From contig KB906767.1 of the NCBI GenBank assembly GCA_000381625.1, positions 2,644,629 through 2,708,628 of the forward strand: 64,000 nt of DNA, written 5' to 3'. Position 1 is the stretch's first letter. Each line of letters opens with the position of its first letter. This document shows positions 42,103 through 53,183 of the stretch, piece by piece. Below the pieces are notes generated by a model, which searched no databases, had not been told where the DNA came from, and saw nothing but the letters and a program-made list of their open reading frames with translations. The position numbers and the translations under genes were made by a program. Source of the DNA: Bryobacterales bacterium KBS 96. Its GTDB lineage: Bacteria > Acidobacteriota > Terriglobia > Bryobacterales > Bryobacteraceae.

Positions 42103-42900
42103 CTACGCCGCGGACGAAAAAGCCAATGCGGGTCCGCAGGATTCGCGATCGAAGTTCCAGGTATGGGCGTTGTTGGCGTGTTCGAGGGTCCATTTCCGCT
42201 TGACTAGGGCCTCGGCTTCCGCTTTCGAACAAACGAAGCCAAACTCGGCCGGCGAGAACTCCTTACCGGCGACGAGATGGCACATGCCGACTCCGTAGAT
42301 CGCTTCCTGCTCGCGGGCTTCCTGGGCTTTGCGCTCCGCCTGGACTTCACGTAACATCTTCAGCACTTTCTCATATTGACGCATCAGGCGCTGTTCATAG
42401 ATGGAGAGCGTCAGCAGCGGGTCTTTCGAGCGGCGCAGCGTTTCGGCGAGGACGAAAGCAGTTTGCGCTTCGGGATGGTTGACGTCCCAGAACTCGGAGT
42501 TTTCGGTGAGGCCGATGGCAAACAAGTTGTGCTCGGTCGCCATGATGCGGTGAAGCCGGTATTGCAACTGAGCGAGCATGTGTACCAGATGCTTCTCCTG
42601 CGTGTTGGCGGGAGCGTACTGCTTTTCGAAATCAGTGATAAGTAGTTGGAGAGCTTTCAATTCCTCGGGAGTCAGAGTAAGCACCTGGGCAGTCAGGCCG
42701 TGACGAGTGGCGTTGAGCGAGGCGCGCTGCTTCCCTTCCTCGGTGCGCGGCCCGGTCGATTTCTGGGCGTTCAGGCGATTGGCGCGAAGGCGCGCTTCGG
42801 AGGGGGCGCGGCGGATGGTGGTTGGCGGATTGGGCGATGCTTCGCTGGAGCTCGACGGCTCGTTTGTGATGATTGCGGGCGGGTTCTTTTTGGAAGACAT
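42103..42900 (-). CDS. Conserved protein of unknown function (NAQKSTGPRT family)
   Basis: A 265-residue protein starting SSKKNPPAIITNEPSSSSEA, with a disordered N-terminus. Then comes a highly recognisable segment RLRANRLNAQKSTGPRTEEG, KQRASLNATRHGLTAQVLTL, seen from memory in many Acidobacteriota and Planctomycetes hypothetical proteins. The remainder is helical (QLQYRLHRIMATEHNLFAIG, LSIYEQRLMRQYEKVLKMLR). AAAGAGGATCGTTC precedes the ATG at 42900; a longer frame to 43071 has no family character. Function unknown. Multi-copy members often sit near mobile elements, and REP-like repeats lie just upstream here. Confidence 0.75.
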   Translation of the reverse strand: MSSKKNPPAIITNEPSSSSEASPNPPTTIRRAPSEARLRANRLNAQKSTGPRTEEGKQRASLNATRHGLTAQVLTLTPEELKALQLLITDFEKQYAPANTQEKHLVHMLAQLQYRLHRIMATEHNLFAIGLTENSEFWDVNHPEAQTAFVLAETLRRSKDPLLTLSIYEQRLMRQYEKVLKMLREVQAERKAQEAREQEAIYGVGMCHLVAGKEFSPAEFGFVCSKAEAEALVKRKWTLEHANNAHTWNFDRESCGPALAFSSAA

Positions 42901-43228: not shown

Positions 43229-43415
43229 GAGTGGGTCGCCGTCTCATAGCGTGTCGAAACGCCGTTGGCGATTGGTTGATAAATAATGGGGAAATGAGTG
43301 CTCCGTCCCCCGATTTTCGATCGAGTCGGGTCGCCGTCTGATAGCGTGTGTCGAAACGCCGTTGGCGATTGGTTGATAAATAATGGGGAAATGAGTGCTC
43401 CGTCCCCCGATTTTG
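43229..43415. repeat. Two direct copies of a REP-like unit
   Basis: A unit of about 90 bp occurs twice (43229-43318 and 43323-43414): GGGTCGCCGTCT, then GTCGAAACGCCGTTGGCGAT, TGGTTGATAAATAATGGGGA and AATGAGTGCTCCGTCCCC CGATTTT. The GAGTGCTCCGTCCCC end is the same as the right end of the mini-element at 47943-48290 and the motif before the RHS gene at 50631. It belongs to a REP family spread over this region. Confidence 0.8.
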
Positions 43416-47942: not shown

Positions 47943-48290
47943 AATTCGGGGACTCATTTCCCATTTCCATTTGCCAAAGCGTAAACAGCCTCTACTTTAC
48001 CCATCGCGTCTTTCGGAAGGTGGCCTGCTTTCTGCCACGCCGAGGACGTCCTACAAGGAGCCCGACCAGCGGACGACGTAGCGTTCGCCATACTCGCGCA
48101 AGTAGTCGTAGGTAGACCATGCGGTCTTGCTCTGCATGGAAAACGGCTCGTCGCCCGTTGCCCCATTGTGTTACGCGATGCGGCAAGCCCACCGCAATCA
48201 CACGTGCGATTCTCCCCACTGGAAATGGAGGTGGGTTGTCGCCCGACTTGCTCTCAGAAATTAGTAGAATGAGTGCTCCGTCCCCGAATT
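47943..48290 (-). mobile_element. REP-bounded mini-element with deleted transposase (family C)
   Basis: Ends AATTCGGGGAC (47943-47953) and GTCCCCGAATT (48280-48290) are inverted repeats. Between them, minus-strand translation gives RIARVIAVGLPHRVTQWGNG, RRAVFHAEQDRMVYLRLLAR, matching the N-terminus of a REP-associated (Y1/HUH) transposase. It then jumps to a short Arg-rich tail (GRPRRGRKQ). The HIH motif and catalytic Tyr region are missing, so it cannot be active by itself. Total length is 348 bp. Confidence 0.75.
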
Positions 48291-49187: not shown

Positions 49188-49199
49188 TCCCTTCCGGAA

Positions 49200-49983
49200 C
49201 TTCGGGGACGGAGAGATATGGTACGAAGAGAGAAATCGGCCTCCCGCGCCACTTTTTAATAAATGGCCAGATTTGCGCGCGCCGTTGCCCTTGGCGTGGC
49301 ACACCATATCACCCAACGCGGCGTTGACCAGCAACGGGTTTTCTTCACCGATGCCGACCGTCACACCTATCTCGATTGCCTGCAAACCTACTCCGCGCAA
49401 GCTCGCCTTCATTCTTGCTTATTGCCTCATGAGCAATCATATCCATCTTGTGGCGGTTCCCGATGAGCCGCAGTCCCTCGGCATAGCCTTGCGCCGCACT
49501 CATGGCCGTTATGCCCTCTACCTCAACTCCCGCCGTCATCGGGTAGGACATCTCTGGCAGAATCGCTTCTATTCCTGCGCGCTCGACGAAATGCATTTAT
49601 GGGCTGCGCTTCGTTATGTGGAACGCAATCCAGTTCGGGCTCAGATTGTAGTGCGACCCGAGGAATACGGCTGGTCGAGCGCCGCCGCACACGTCGGCGC
49701 AAATGCTCCTCCCACGCTGCTGGATTGGCAGTTCTACGCCAACTCCGGCGGGCAGGAACGATGGATTGCGCTTTTGGCGGAGCCCGAACAATTGGCGACC
49801 ATTCGCGCCCTACAGCGCGGAACGTTCACCGGACGGCCGGTGGGTGGCCCCGAGTTTGTCGCGCGTCTCGAACAAGAGCTCGGCCGCCCCTTGGCGCCGC
49901 GCCAAGGCCAGCGCACTCGCTCCGAATCCGCGTTCGCCATTTCTCAATAATCCACTTCGTACCATATCTCTTCGTCCCCGAAG
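49200..49983 (+). mobile_element. REP-associated transposase element (family A), full-length
   Basis: A 784-bp element bounded by near-perfect 29-bp inverted repeats: 49200-49228 begins CTTCGGGGACGGAGAGATAT and 49955-49983 is its complement with one mismatch. It contains one transposase gene, frameshifted (next entry). Short GAAGTTCC-type micro-repeats follow the right end (49980-50025). The same ends bound the 261-bp derivative at 52810-53070. Confidence 0.88.
49263..49950 (+). pseudogene. REP-associated tyrosine (Y1/HUH) transposase, frameshifted
   Basis: The first 47 or so residues lie in one frame (ARFARAVALGVAHHITQRGV, then VFFTDADRHTYLDCLQTYSA), and the rest in the next frame from about 49405 (LAYCLMSNHIHLVAVPDEPQ). 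Together they form a complete RAYT/TnpA-REP of about 225 residues. The HUH motif is NHIHLV, and the catalytic Tyr is in LRYVERNPVRAQIVVRPEEY, with the EYGWSSAAAH family block. One extra base (or loss of two) near 49400-49410 breaks the gene, unless translation shifts there. RAYTs mobilise or maintain REP sequences, as in Pseudomonas and Escherichia; here the flanking ends are its likely substrate. Confidence 0.88.
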
Positions 49984-50151
49984 TTCCCGGAAGTTCCCGA
50001 AGTTCCGCCGGAAGTTCCGCCGGGCGAAAAGACCATACAAATCCGCACGAACATCCATATGATCCGAATACTGGAAAAAGAGGAAGTCAGCAGCCCTTGC
50101 CAAAACCATGTGCGAATCAGGGCAGCCAGTGTTCGTAGTGAGTGCTAACAA
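49984..50151 (-). pseudogene. Possible N-terminal fragment of the gene split by element A
   Basis: On the minus strand a frame from 50151 reads LALTTNTGCPDSHMVLARAA, DFLFFQYSDHMDVRADLYGL FARRN before running into the micro-repeats at the element's right edge. It may be the 5' part of the gene whose 3' end lies at 49117-49187. Coding status and family are uncertain. Confidence 0.3.
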
Positions 50152-50168
50152 ACAAAGAGCTTATTACC

Positions 50169-50612
50169 GTGCAGAAAATAGAGATATCAGACAGCAGCAA
50201 CGGCTTCTTATCATTTGACCTAAAAGACATTCTCCGAGTTCTTCCTCCCGTTGCGGCGGGTTTAGCTTGGCATATTCTTGCACTCGAAGCAGTTGGCCAT
50301 GGCTTGAAGGGACAGTCAATGCTAGCGACTGAGAGCCAAATTAACTCCAATCCACACGGACTCCGGCTCCGATTTCAGGAACTCGAGGATTTTGCTGCGG
50401 GTTTAGAACAAACTGTAAACGCCGTGATCATAGGGCTGACAACAGAGCATACGCCCCCGTCGCTGCCAGTTCAAAATGGTTACCACGTGCCATGCATCAT
50501 AATCGAAGCTATTGACTCCTCTCTGTGGACTGTGAGCTCAAATGAAGATGTTGTTATTAGAAGCGTTCTCGAGCACTTTGAGCGGACGACGGTGGTCGTC
50601 GCTGATCAGTGA
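50169..50612 (+). CDS. Small protein of unknown function between transposase and RHS gene
   Basis: A 147-residue protein, start GTG at 50169 (QKIEISDSSNGFLSFDLKDI), or a GTG at 50142. Features: FLSFDLKDILRVLPPVAAGL, AWHILALEAVGHGLKGQSML, a central helix (RLRFQELEDFAAGLEQTVNA) and a C-terminal SVLEHFERTTVVVADQ. No signal peptide or membrane helix. Its position between a REP element and an RHS tip makes an orphan immunity protein a fair guess. I do not recognise the family. Confidence 0.5.
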   Translation: MQKIEISDSSNGFLSFDLKDILRVLPPVAAGLAWHILALEAVGHGLKGQSMLATESQINSNPHGLRLRFQELEDFAAGLEQTVNAVIIGLTTEHTPPSLPVQNGYHVPCIIIEAIDSSLWTVSSNEDVVIRSVLEHFERTTVVVADQ

Positions 50613-50624
50613 GACATACTGGAA

Positions 50625-50657
50625 ATCAGGGGAGCACTCATTCTACTGATTCTGTAG
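50625..50657. repeat. REP family C end motif at RHS breakpoint
   Basis: AGGGGAGCACTCATTCTACT GATTCTG matches the inverted right end of the mini-element at 47943-48290 (GGACGGAGCACTCATTCTAC TAATTTCTG). An in-frame TAG at 50655 ends any read-through into the RHS frame, so this is the point at which the RHS gene lost its 5' part. Confidence 0.7.
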
Positions 50658-50663
50658 ATCTGC

Positions 50664-52046
50664 GTGGTGGACAGCGGCGGATGGGCGCGGTATTTCGCCT
50701 ATGATCAATACAGCAATATGTGGCTGTGCGGATGGCCAGGGATCGCGCCAAATGGTTCTGCGCCGGTGGCGAACTACTGCTCGCAGACGCCGTCGGGCAT
50801 TTTCAATACGGCGAATCGAATCGGCACGGGTTCTTACGACGCGGCGGGCAATCAGTTGACGGTGGCGGGCAGCAATCTTACGTACGATGCGGAGAACCGG
50901 ATTACGAAGGCGTTGCAGCCCGGCATCGGGTACGTGGATTATGGCTATGACGGAAACGGGCGGCGGGTATTTAAGAGCAACTCGTATGGCTCGCAAACCA
51001 TCTACGTGTACGATGCGGAAGGAAAGCTAGTCGCTGAATATTCGCTTGGTGTCGGTTCCGTCTCGCCATGCCAGACGTGCTATCTGAGCCTCGATCATCT
51101 GGGCAGCACACGGCTGGTTACAGACCAGGCCGGCAACACCGTTTCCCGACACGATTACATTCCGTTTGGCGAGGAGATCCAGGCCAATAGCGGCGGACGC
51201 GACGGCACGTTCGGAACACAGGACTTCGTGAACCAGAAGTTCACCGGCAAAGAACGCGATCAGGAGACGGGGTTAGACTTTTTTGGGGCAAGGTACATGT
51301 CGAGTGCGCTGGGAAGGTTCACCAGCCCGGATGTACCATTAGCAGATCAGTGGGAGAAGGATCCTCAGAGTTGGAATTTATATAGTTACGTTCGCAACAA
51401 TCCACTGCGTACGATCGATCCGACTGGTCGGAAGTGTGTAGACACAAGTAACGGCCCGGCGGACGACGGAACGGGCGGAGGTTGTTCTGCAGCCGGAGTA
51501 GATCCAAACGGCAACATTCAGCCGCAGCAGGTCAACGTAAACGCCCAAGGTGGTAATCAGCTGACCGCGTTCGGCCTGAACTTGATGTTCGCACTAAGCA
51601 ACGTTGCAAATGACGCATTCAGGTTCATAGCCCCCGATTCGCAGCTTCTTTCAAATACTCCAACTAATCGGGAGTTCACCGGACAACTTGCGACAGGGGT
51701 TGCGGTGGTTGGTACCGCTCTGATCGGACCCGGAGGAGAGGCAGCGCAGGCACCACGCGAAATCAAGGTCACTTGGAAGGGTCTACTGCACGTCATTCAG
51801 CGGCATACTGGCGGCATGGCTGGCAAGAGCTTCTTCGGAGATTCTACGGCCGTAACGGGGCTGGTCAAGGCGGCCGAGGCGGTTGCGCCCACGCCTCAGG
51901 CGGGAGGCAATTTCATTCGCATCGTTGATGCTGGGCGAACAATCGGGACTGACATAACGACGGGGCAGGCGACCTCGGTATATACGGTAGTTACAAACAA
52001 GGCGGGCGAGCTGGTCACGGCTTTTCCTGGCAGGCCAACGAGGTAA
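50664..52046 (+). CDS. RHS-repeat C-terminal core with toxin-like tip (5' truncated)
   Basis: A 460-residue open frame without its N-terminal repeats. The first visible codons are GTG GTG at 50664 and an in-frame stop lies nine bases earlier. RHS/YD repeats occupy the first part (SYDAAGNQLTVAGSNLTYDA, ENRITKALQPGIGYVDYGYD). The core motif block is present: YLSLDHLGSTRLVTDQAGNT, GKERDQETGLDFFGARYMSS, ALGRFTSPD and WNLYSYVRNNPLRTIDPTGR. After the core comes a variable tip, about residues 255-460. It ends VTWKGLLHVIQRHTGGMAGK, then SFFGDSTAV, and VYTVVTNKAGELVTAFPGRP, a His/Arg and VTAFPG pattern reminiscent of BECR-fold RNase toxins. That last call is inference. A start and secretion signal are missing, so the gene may be silent. 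Confidence 0.8.
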   Translation: MVDSGGWARYFAYDQYSNMWLCGWPGIAPNGSAPVANYCSQTPSGIFNTANRIGTGSYDAAGNQLTVAGSNLTYDAENRITKALQPGIGYVDYGYDGNGRRVFKSNSYGSQTIYVYDAEGKLVAEYSLGVGSVSPCQTCYLSLDHLGSTRLVTDQAGNTVSRHDYIPFGEEIQANSGGRDGTFGTQDFVNQKFTGKERDQETGLDFFGARYMSSALGRFTSPDVPLADQWEKDPQSWNLYSYVRNNPLRTIDPTGRKCVDTSNGPADDGTGGGCSAAGVDPNGNIQPQQVNVNAQGGNQLTAFGLNLMFALSNVANDAFRFIAPDSQLLSNTPTNREFTGQLATGVAVVGTALIGPGGEAAQAPREIKVTWKGLLHVIQRHTGGMAGKSFFGDSTAVTGLVKAAEAVAPTPQAGGNFIRIVDAGRTIGTDITTGQATSVYTVVTNKAGELVTAFPGRPTR

Positions 52047-52049
52047 GGC

Positions 52050-52358
52050 ATGGGACTTGGAATCGCATTACAGGATGAATCAGGTGTCGAGTTGGTCTCG
52101 GTGGCAGATCCCAAGAACTACTTAGGCAAACTATTGCCTGAACACGACGATCCTACTCACCCGATGCTGGCATCGATCGATTTCTATGGAGACACTATTT
52201 TTAATCGTATGCAAATGGATCGATTCCTGACGGAGTGGGCAGATATTTCGGCGAAGGCACACCTGCCCGAGGAAAAGACATTGGTCTCAACAATAGAGGG
52301 GCTGGCACGTCGCTGTCAAGACGAGGTCCACCTATACCTCAAATTCATCGGAGATTGA
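52050..52358 (+). CDS. Putative immunity protein for the RHS tip
   Basis: A 102-residue acidic protein beginning three bases after the RHS stop codon (ATG at 52050): GLGIALQDESGVELVSVADP, KNYLGKLLPEHDDPTHPMLA, SIDFYGDTIFNRMQMDRFLT, and a closing QDEVHLYLKFIGD. Small, acidic and directly downstream of a polymorphic-toxin tip, it fits the position and size of a cognate immunity protein. No family is certain. The link to the tip is from gene order only. Confidence 0.6.
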   Translation: MGLGIALQDESGVELVSVADPKNYLGKLLPEHDDPTHPMLASIDFYGDTIFNRMQMDRFLTEWADISAKAHLPEEKTLVSTIEGLARRCQDEVHLYLKFIGD

Positions 52359-52480
52359 GTAGGATCGGTGCTCCCGCGAGTAGGCCTGCCGCTTTGAGAA
52401 TTCGGCACGTTGCACTGGTCGCGGAAGCTCGCACGGAGAATAGCTGGTGACTGGGAGCATCCAAGACCAGAGAAACAAAA

Positions 52481-52497
52481 CGGTGCCTTCGGCACCG
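52481..52497 (+). terminator. Hairpin after putative immunity gene
   Basis: CGGTGCC TTC GGCACCG is a perfect 7-bp stem with a 3-nt loop about 120 bases after the immunity gene stop codon, preceded by AAACAAAA. It could be a terminator hairpin in either direction. Confidence 0.4.
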
Positions 52498-52586
52498 GCT
52501 AATAGGTGACACGTCACCCCTGGGGAGGTTGCTGGAGAGCAACCGAAGTTGCTGAATAGCAACCGTTGAAAACAAAGGAAGAGCAG

Positions 52587-52617
52587 AAACGCGGTTGCTA
52601 ACTGGCACCGCGTTTTT
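52587..52617 (+). terminator. Intrinsic terminator
   Basis: AAACGCGGT (52587-52595) pairs perfectly with ACCGCGTTT (52607-52615), and the run TTTTT follows within the arm. It is a classic intrinsic terminator, positioned to end the RHS/immunity transcript. Confidence 0.7.
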
Positions 52618-52808
52618 ATGCGTGTTCGAGCTGATGCGGGGCGGCTTCGACGTGCTGGCGGATCTTGCGGGAGCGCTCGATGACGCCGGCAATGAAATCG
52701 ATCCAGTCCTGCGGGAGGTTCTCGCCGCTGGTCCATTCGGGATCGGAGTAAACGCCGTTGGCGTGTTGCAGGGCGACCGGGTCGATGGTCAGCTTGCCAT
52801 GAAAGGGA
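52616..52808 (-). pseudogene. C-terminal fragment of an interrupted minus-strand gene
   Basis: One minus-strand frame reads FHGKLTIDPVALQHANGVYS, DPEWTSGENLPQDWIDFIAG, VIERSRKIRQHVEAAPHQLE HA and stops at 52616-52618, where the terminator region begins. It is well-formed coding sequence but has no start: at its 5' side it runs straight into the left end of mini-element B at 52810. The element therefore appears to have cut the gene. The family is not recognised. Confidence 0.5.
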
Positions 52809-52809
52809 A

Positions 52810-53070
52810 CCTCCGGGACGGAGAGATATGGTACGAAGAGAGAAATCGGCTTCCTGCGCTATTTTCTGATAAATGGCCAGATTTCCACGCGCTATTCGTG
52901 CCCCCTACAGCGTGGGACGTTTACTGCGGGACAGCGCCGAGTTTGTGGCATGTCTTGAACAAGACCTCGGCCGCCTATTGGCGCCACGCCGAGGCCAGCA
53001 AACTCGCGTCGAATCCGTACTCGCCATCTCTCAATAATCCACTTCGTACCATATCTCTCCGTCCCCGAAG
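52810..53070 (+). mobile_element. Non-autonomous mini-element (family A deletion derivative)
   Basis: A 261-bp element with the same inverted-repeat ends as the full RAYT element: left 52810-52838 (CGGGACGGAGAGATATGGTA…), right 53042-53070. Its left part matches 49200-49280, including the transposase start (ATGGCCAGATTT), and its right part matches about 49802-49983. An internal deletion of about 520 bp joins them. Three exact copies of TTGCCCGAAG follow the right end (53071-53100). Confidence 0.85.
52873..53037 (+). CDS. 54-codon in-frame fusion ORF inside mini-element B
   Basis: The deletion joins the transposase's first codons (ARFPRAIRAPYSVGRLLRDS) to its C-terminal segment (AEFVACLEQDLGRLLAPRRG QQTRVESVLAISQ) without breaking the frame. 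The product lacks both the HUH motif and the catalytic Tyr. It keeps a basic C-terminal tail of the parent and could at most be a DNA-binding remnant. Whether it is translated is unknown; it has no better Shine-Dalgarno than its parent. Confidence 0.3.
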   Translation: MARFPRAIRAPYSVGRLLRDSAEFVACLEQDLGRLLAPRRGQQTRVESVLAISQ

Positions 53071-53183
53071 TTGCCCGAAGTTGCCCGAAGTTGCCCGAAG
53101 AATATGCGGCGCGCACGTTGTGGGGTCACTGGATTACAAAGCGACCATGAAACTGAGATCCTTTAGATTGGATTGATTGATTT

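Follow-up and report, generated by a model that had tools for sequence, protein, structure and literature searches.

In the genome of the soil acidobacterium Bryobacterales bacterium KBS 96, we identified two related elements lying 2.8 kb apart within a 64,000-nucleotide stretch of DNA (the window), which we read, with a probability of roughly 0.8, as two members of one small TIRYT family: a full-size copy whose transposase gene is frameshifted and a miniature copy (the mini) that would be older, predate a species split and stem from another lineage of the element. The feature is real but ordinary: the element is of a known kind, its members here have decayed, and they are probably the debris of a once-mobile family. 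A neighboring full-size and miniature pair of this sort is not evidence of recent transposition. What it adds is a clear example in which a TIRYT element is accompanied by an apparently ancient, vertically inherited, internally deleted derivative.

Alignment of the two segments confirmed that they share inverted ends and lie in the same orientation with an RHS region between them, as an earlier note on this DNA had described. That note placed both elements correctly but made them a few bases too short: the full-size element occupies 49196-49987 (792 bp) rather than 49200-49983, the mini, in the same orientation, occupies 52805-53075 (271 bp), and the ends measure 31-34 bp rather than 29. The features of the pair are as follows.

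49196-49228, + strand: left inverted end of the full-size element, GGAACTTCGGGGACGGAGAGATATGGTACGAAG
49263-49950, + strand: Y1/HUH transposase pseudogene (RAYT/TIRYT-type), in two ORF frames
49955-49987, - strand: right inverted end of the full-size element
49977-50019, + strand: outermost end sequence, CCCGAAGTTCC, tandemly repeated in degenerate form just beyond the right end of the full-size element
52805-53075, + strand: the mini, an internally deleted element, with its junction at 52893/52894 (CGCT/ATTCG)
52805-52838, + strand: left inverted end of the mini
53042-53075, - strand: right inverted end of the mini
53064-53100, + strand: CCCGAAGTTG (the end's outermost 10 bp) in tandem copies just beyond the right end of the mini

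The inverted ends of the full-size element are 33 bp long and 97% identical, those of the mini are 34 bp long and 91% identical, and the left arm of the full-size element pairs with the right arm of the mini over a perfect 31 bp (49198-49228 with 53042-53072). When the two copies are aligned, the mini lacks 517 bp (49284-49800), in line with the loss of about 520 bp reported before, and what the copies have in common is a block of 87 bp on the left (89% identical) and one of 152 bp on the right (86%). An internal deletion with both ends kept is indeed the structure of a non-autonomous element, as had been claimed, and the mini resembles a MITE in being short, retaining both ends, having no working gene and recurring with the same junction in more than one copy (at two sites in a congener). 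The likeness of the two segments is real and far above chance: a 23-bp core of the end occurs four times in the window against 0.00 expected from 100 shuffles, and seven times in the 6.69-Mb genome against none for a reversed control pattern. Between the pair lies an orphan RHS ORF (50664-52046; Rhs_assc_core, 2.1e-18), followed by a small downstream ORF. The outermost end sequence (CCCGAAGTT) forms short tandem arrays that adjoin element ends on the outside, at 49977-50019, 53064-53100, 3670170-3670215 and 3670630-3670671; the last two lie on both flanks of a copy at 3670 kb in the same genome.

The gene in the full-size copy can be recognized as a RAYT-type Y1 transposase by its matches to NF047646 (E 9e-15, over the C-terminal part) and Pfam Y1_Tnp (3e-7) and by its NHIH and YVERNP motifs, although the NF047646 match of the C-terminal part is below the curated cut-off of 80 bits, with six intact relatives scoring 68-80 bits. 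That much of the former description as a full-length RAYT element holds, but the gene is not full-length in function. Near 49409, 2 bp are absent compared with both of the relatives that span the site (a copy at 3684348 in the same genome and the full copy of the congener), so that the N-terminal part is read in the frame of ORF 49263-49466 and the C-terminal part (CLMSNHIHL...YVERNP) in that of ORF 49273-49950. Since both relatives possess these 2 bp, the full-size copy is, judged by its sequence, a pseudogene and not a working helper. The congener's full copy keeps an open frame but carries ATA where the window copy has its ATG start. The KBS 96 genome yielded no intact copy belonging to precisely this family; a more distant open-frame relative of 243 aa and 67% DNA identity is present there at 4807257. 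A PDB sequence match for the transposase was not found. Pfam at E<=0.1 detected no C-terminal helix-turn-helix (HTH) domain in the six intact relatives, though a divergent tail could escape such a search, and the intact relatives resemble the transpos_IS200 model weakly.

We assign the window element to the TIRYT/TIRtron kind (TIRYT standing for TIR-associated tyrosine transposase), a branch of the RAYT/IS200-like Y1 HUH superfamily. TIRYTs have been described as Y1 transposases flanked by inverted repeats that share GGGGWSAS, not by GTAG REPs (Di Nocera et al. 2013, PMC3733652), and parts of the same account report an Acidobacteria branch and cover ends occurring as singles, dimers and clusters, not internally deleted copies with both ends as seen here. 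TnpA-Y1 subclass 2.1 (Bertels group 1), as characterized by Quentin et al. (2018, PMC6006769), has a median length of 238 aa, GGGG[AT][CG]A[CG] ends and a C-terminal helix-turn-helix; it is probably the same group as TIRYT. The window element resembles TIRYT/TIRtron in its gene of about 230 aa encoding a Y1 HUH protein, its inverted repeats with a GGGGWSAS-like motif and its single and clustered ends. Its end core, GGGGACGG, agrees with GGGGWSAS at 7 of 8 positions, while several relatives have GGGGACAG, an exact match. Membership in subclass 2.1 is likely rather than proven, because the end here is one base off the consensus and the HTH tail was not detected.

The ends of relatives from public genomes are of the same type. 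Inverted ends bracket the gene in the 34 loci listed from 53 relatives examined, which span Acidobacteria, Planctomycetes, Hydrogenedentes, Proteobacteria and others, and GGGAC forms the core of nearly all of these ends, most frequently as GGGAC[AG]G. Across the 34 loci, the ends are imperfect palindromes with a mean best stem of 5.5 bp, against 3.9 bp in mononucleotide shuffles (the largest of 500 shuffle means being 4.35), and extra end copies are found within 250 bp outside the element at 8 loci, against 2 in distant control stretches. A GTAG foot is absent from the end sequences. We read the ends as inverted ones of TIRYT type and not as GTAG REPs. RAYT/REPtron and REPIN systems share with the window element a related transposase and inverted hairpin units, but differ in having the GTAG foot and many copies, and the mini retains internal gene sequence where a REPIN would have two REPs. 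Trans-mobilized non-autonomous derivatives have been proposed for RAYT/REPIN systems. IS200/IS605 elements and their miniatures are likewise similar in their Y1 HUH catalytic motif and end hairpins; unlike them, the window element has inverted repeats at its ends in place of unpaired left and right hairpins, lacks tnpB and matches the transpos_IS200 model weakly. No target duplication is expected of IS200/IS605 elements.

The age of the mini can be gauged from a second species. When the ends were searched in 61 genomes with up to 2 mismatches, they were found in one other genome only, that of a congener (G001). There, a mini lies, judged by its right side, at the same site as the window mini and is 94.5% identical to it, with a 1.4-kb right flank that is 95.6% identical, whereas the window mini is 85.2% identical to the neighboring full-size copy; the full-size copies of the two species are 88.9% identical. 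The identical deletion junction is present in the congener at C185:11357-11648 and C185:14287-14543, the second of these minis lying 2.6 kb from the first, having a further deletion of about 20 bp and adjoining a duplicated 63-bp flank. The shared junction and the same-site mini show, provided that rates among copies are broadly similar, that the mini would have formed and occupied its present site before the species split. Being closer to its same-site counterpart than to its neighbor, it would predate the split and would not be the neighbor's product, and it appears to descend from an older, different lineage of the element. The earlier proposal of recent local activity, in which the mini arose from the neighboring full-size element through internal deletion followed by transposition, could draw on the common orientation of the pair, their spacing of 2.8 kb and their shared ends. 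With 14.8% divergence between mini and full-size copy against 5.5% between the same-site minis of two species, and with the full-size copy frameshifted, we consider that proposal contradicted and highly improbable. Orthology of the full-size copies of the two species was considered as well and rejected, the local matches nearby being repeats and the divergence being greater than that of the same-site mini. The congener region C185:9925-16153 (L154) is a synteny breakpoint, one side of which corresponds to the window and the other to 6434621-6437631 of the KBS 96 genome, and its junction holds the two minis, the duplicated 63-bp flank and a 450-bp repeat. This coding repeat (RLNAQKSTGPRTEEGKQRASLNATRHGL) is located in the window at 42116-42565, and the genome holds at least 12 copies of it that are near-complete and about 88% identical.

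Our preferred reading, two decayed members of one TIRYT family, supposes that the family was once mobile. The trans-mobilization that we infer would proceed through ends that are short, imperfect hairpins with the core GGGAC[AG]G, facing opposite ways around the transposase gene; the transposase would bind these hairpins on single-stranded DNA, nick through its HUH/Tyr site and move whatever lies between two ends, and internally deleted copies with both ends would be moved in trans for as long as a working enzyme exists. Mobility of the family is likely because at least five different end-retaining deletions are found in two genomes, KBS 96 and the congener, and because the ends are dispersed among unrelated flanks. 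These deletions, which show that end-retaining losses arose repeatedly within one genus, are those of the mini, of the 3670-kb copy (different from that of the mini), of a sister-element mini at 47948-48285 and of two copies in congener contig C273. One-ended and internal fragments also occur (at 3684 kb, 4806551-4806939 and 985213, and in congener contigs C119 and C181), so decay contributes. These fragments might suggest that the minis were never mobilized at all but are decay products, spread by segmental duplication or recombination in a repeat-rich RHS area, with their ends kept by chance; local duplication could similarly explain the second congener mini beside its duplicated 63-bp flank. 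We regard this as unlikely, given that both ends are retained in at least five independent deletions and that homologous units elsewhere have the GGGGACGG terminus as their exact start, beyond which the sequence is unrelated. A true REP/REPIN system, in which the ends would be dispersed REPs used by the host and the RAYT would be domesticated, fits the small hairpin at each end and the presence of solo and clustered ends. Such a system is very unlikely here, as the GTAG tag is absent at the hairpin foot, this end has only 7 copies in the genome and the sister end 17, rather than hundreds, and the gene is broken. The search of the genome and relatives that the earlier note had proposed bore out the recurrence of the ends elsewhere but yielded no clean empty site, whether for the 7.5-kb window region and the 3670-kb and 985-kb copies in the congener or for the congener's two loci in this genome. 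In the sole congener with the element, neither the full copy's flanks nor the mini's left flank are present, so no empty site could be demonstrated.

A sister TIRYT element with its own ends is also represented in the window, both as a deletion derivative and at the edge of the RHS fragment.

47948-48285, - strand: third TIRYT-type element, absent from the earlier note: a derivative of the sister TIRYT element with a second, independent internal deletion
50629-50651, + strand: sister TIRYT left end with a slight deletion (GGGGAGCACTCATTCTACTGATT), marking exactly where the orphan RHS fragment starts on its 5' side

The sister parent is found at 4806937-4807746 in the same genome, and the derivative has a complete left end (48268-48285) and a degenerate right end at 47948. 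End-like sequences of the sister element occur at 17 genome sites, against 0 for the control. At four sites (50629 in the window and 987265, 4803688 and 4809665 in the same genome; L212, L213), the sister left end, of about 27 bp, lies directly 5' of the last RHS repeats of orphan RHS fragments. These sites are homologous from the GGGG terminus onward and unrelated over the 400 bp outside it. The RHS parts are about 70% identical between two subgroups, while three of the four ends match that of the parent at 96-100% identity, the end thus being better conserved than the RHS sequence that follows it; the window copy is missing 4 bp internally. It is conceivable, though we think it doubtful, that TIRYT ends mobilize cargo beyond their own gene, such as RHS 3' fragments; alternatively, one old fusion of an end to RHS may have been spread by recombination. 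Such a fusion was not found in the few other relatives in which it could be checked; in L084, RHS lies near TIRYT genes with no end directly upstream. Should the boundary observation prove right, Y1 transposases would be tied to the spread of RHS gene tips, with an HUH transposase as the vehicle dispersing RHS tip cassettes.

A sequence resembling the sister right end likewise forms a boundary, at five further loci with unrelated sequence outside. From a short translation, the unit that it bounds was considered as RHS; this was rejected, and the unit is a repeat of about 305 bp. The repeat, which ends in GCCAGTTCTGGC, starts in the window at 43293-43310 and 43390-43407 and occurs also at L214, L215, L216 and L218; the window copy shows a tandem duplication of the first 97 bp.
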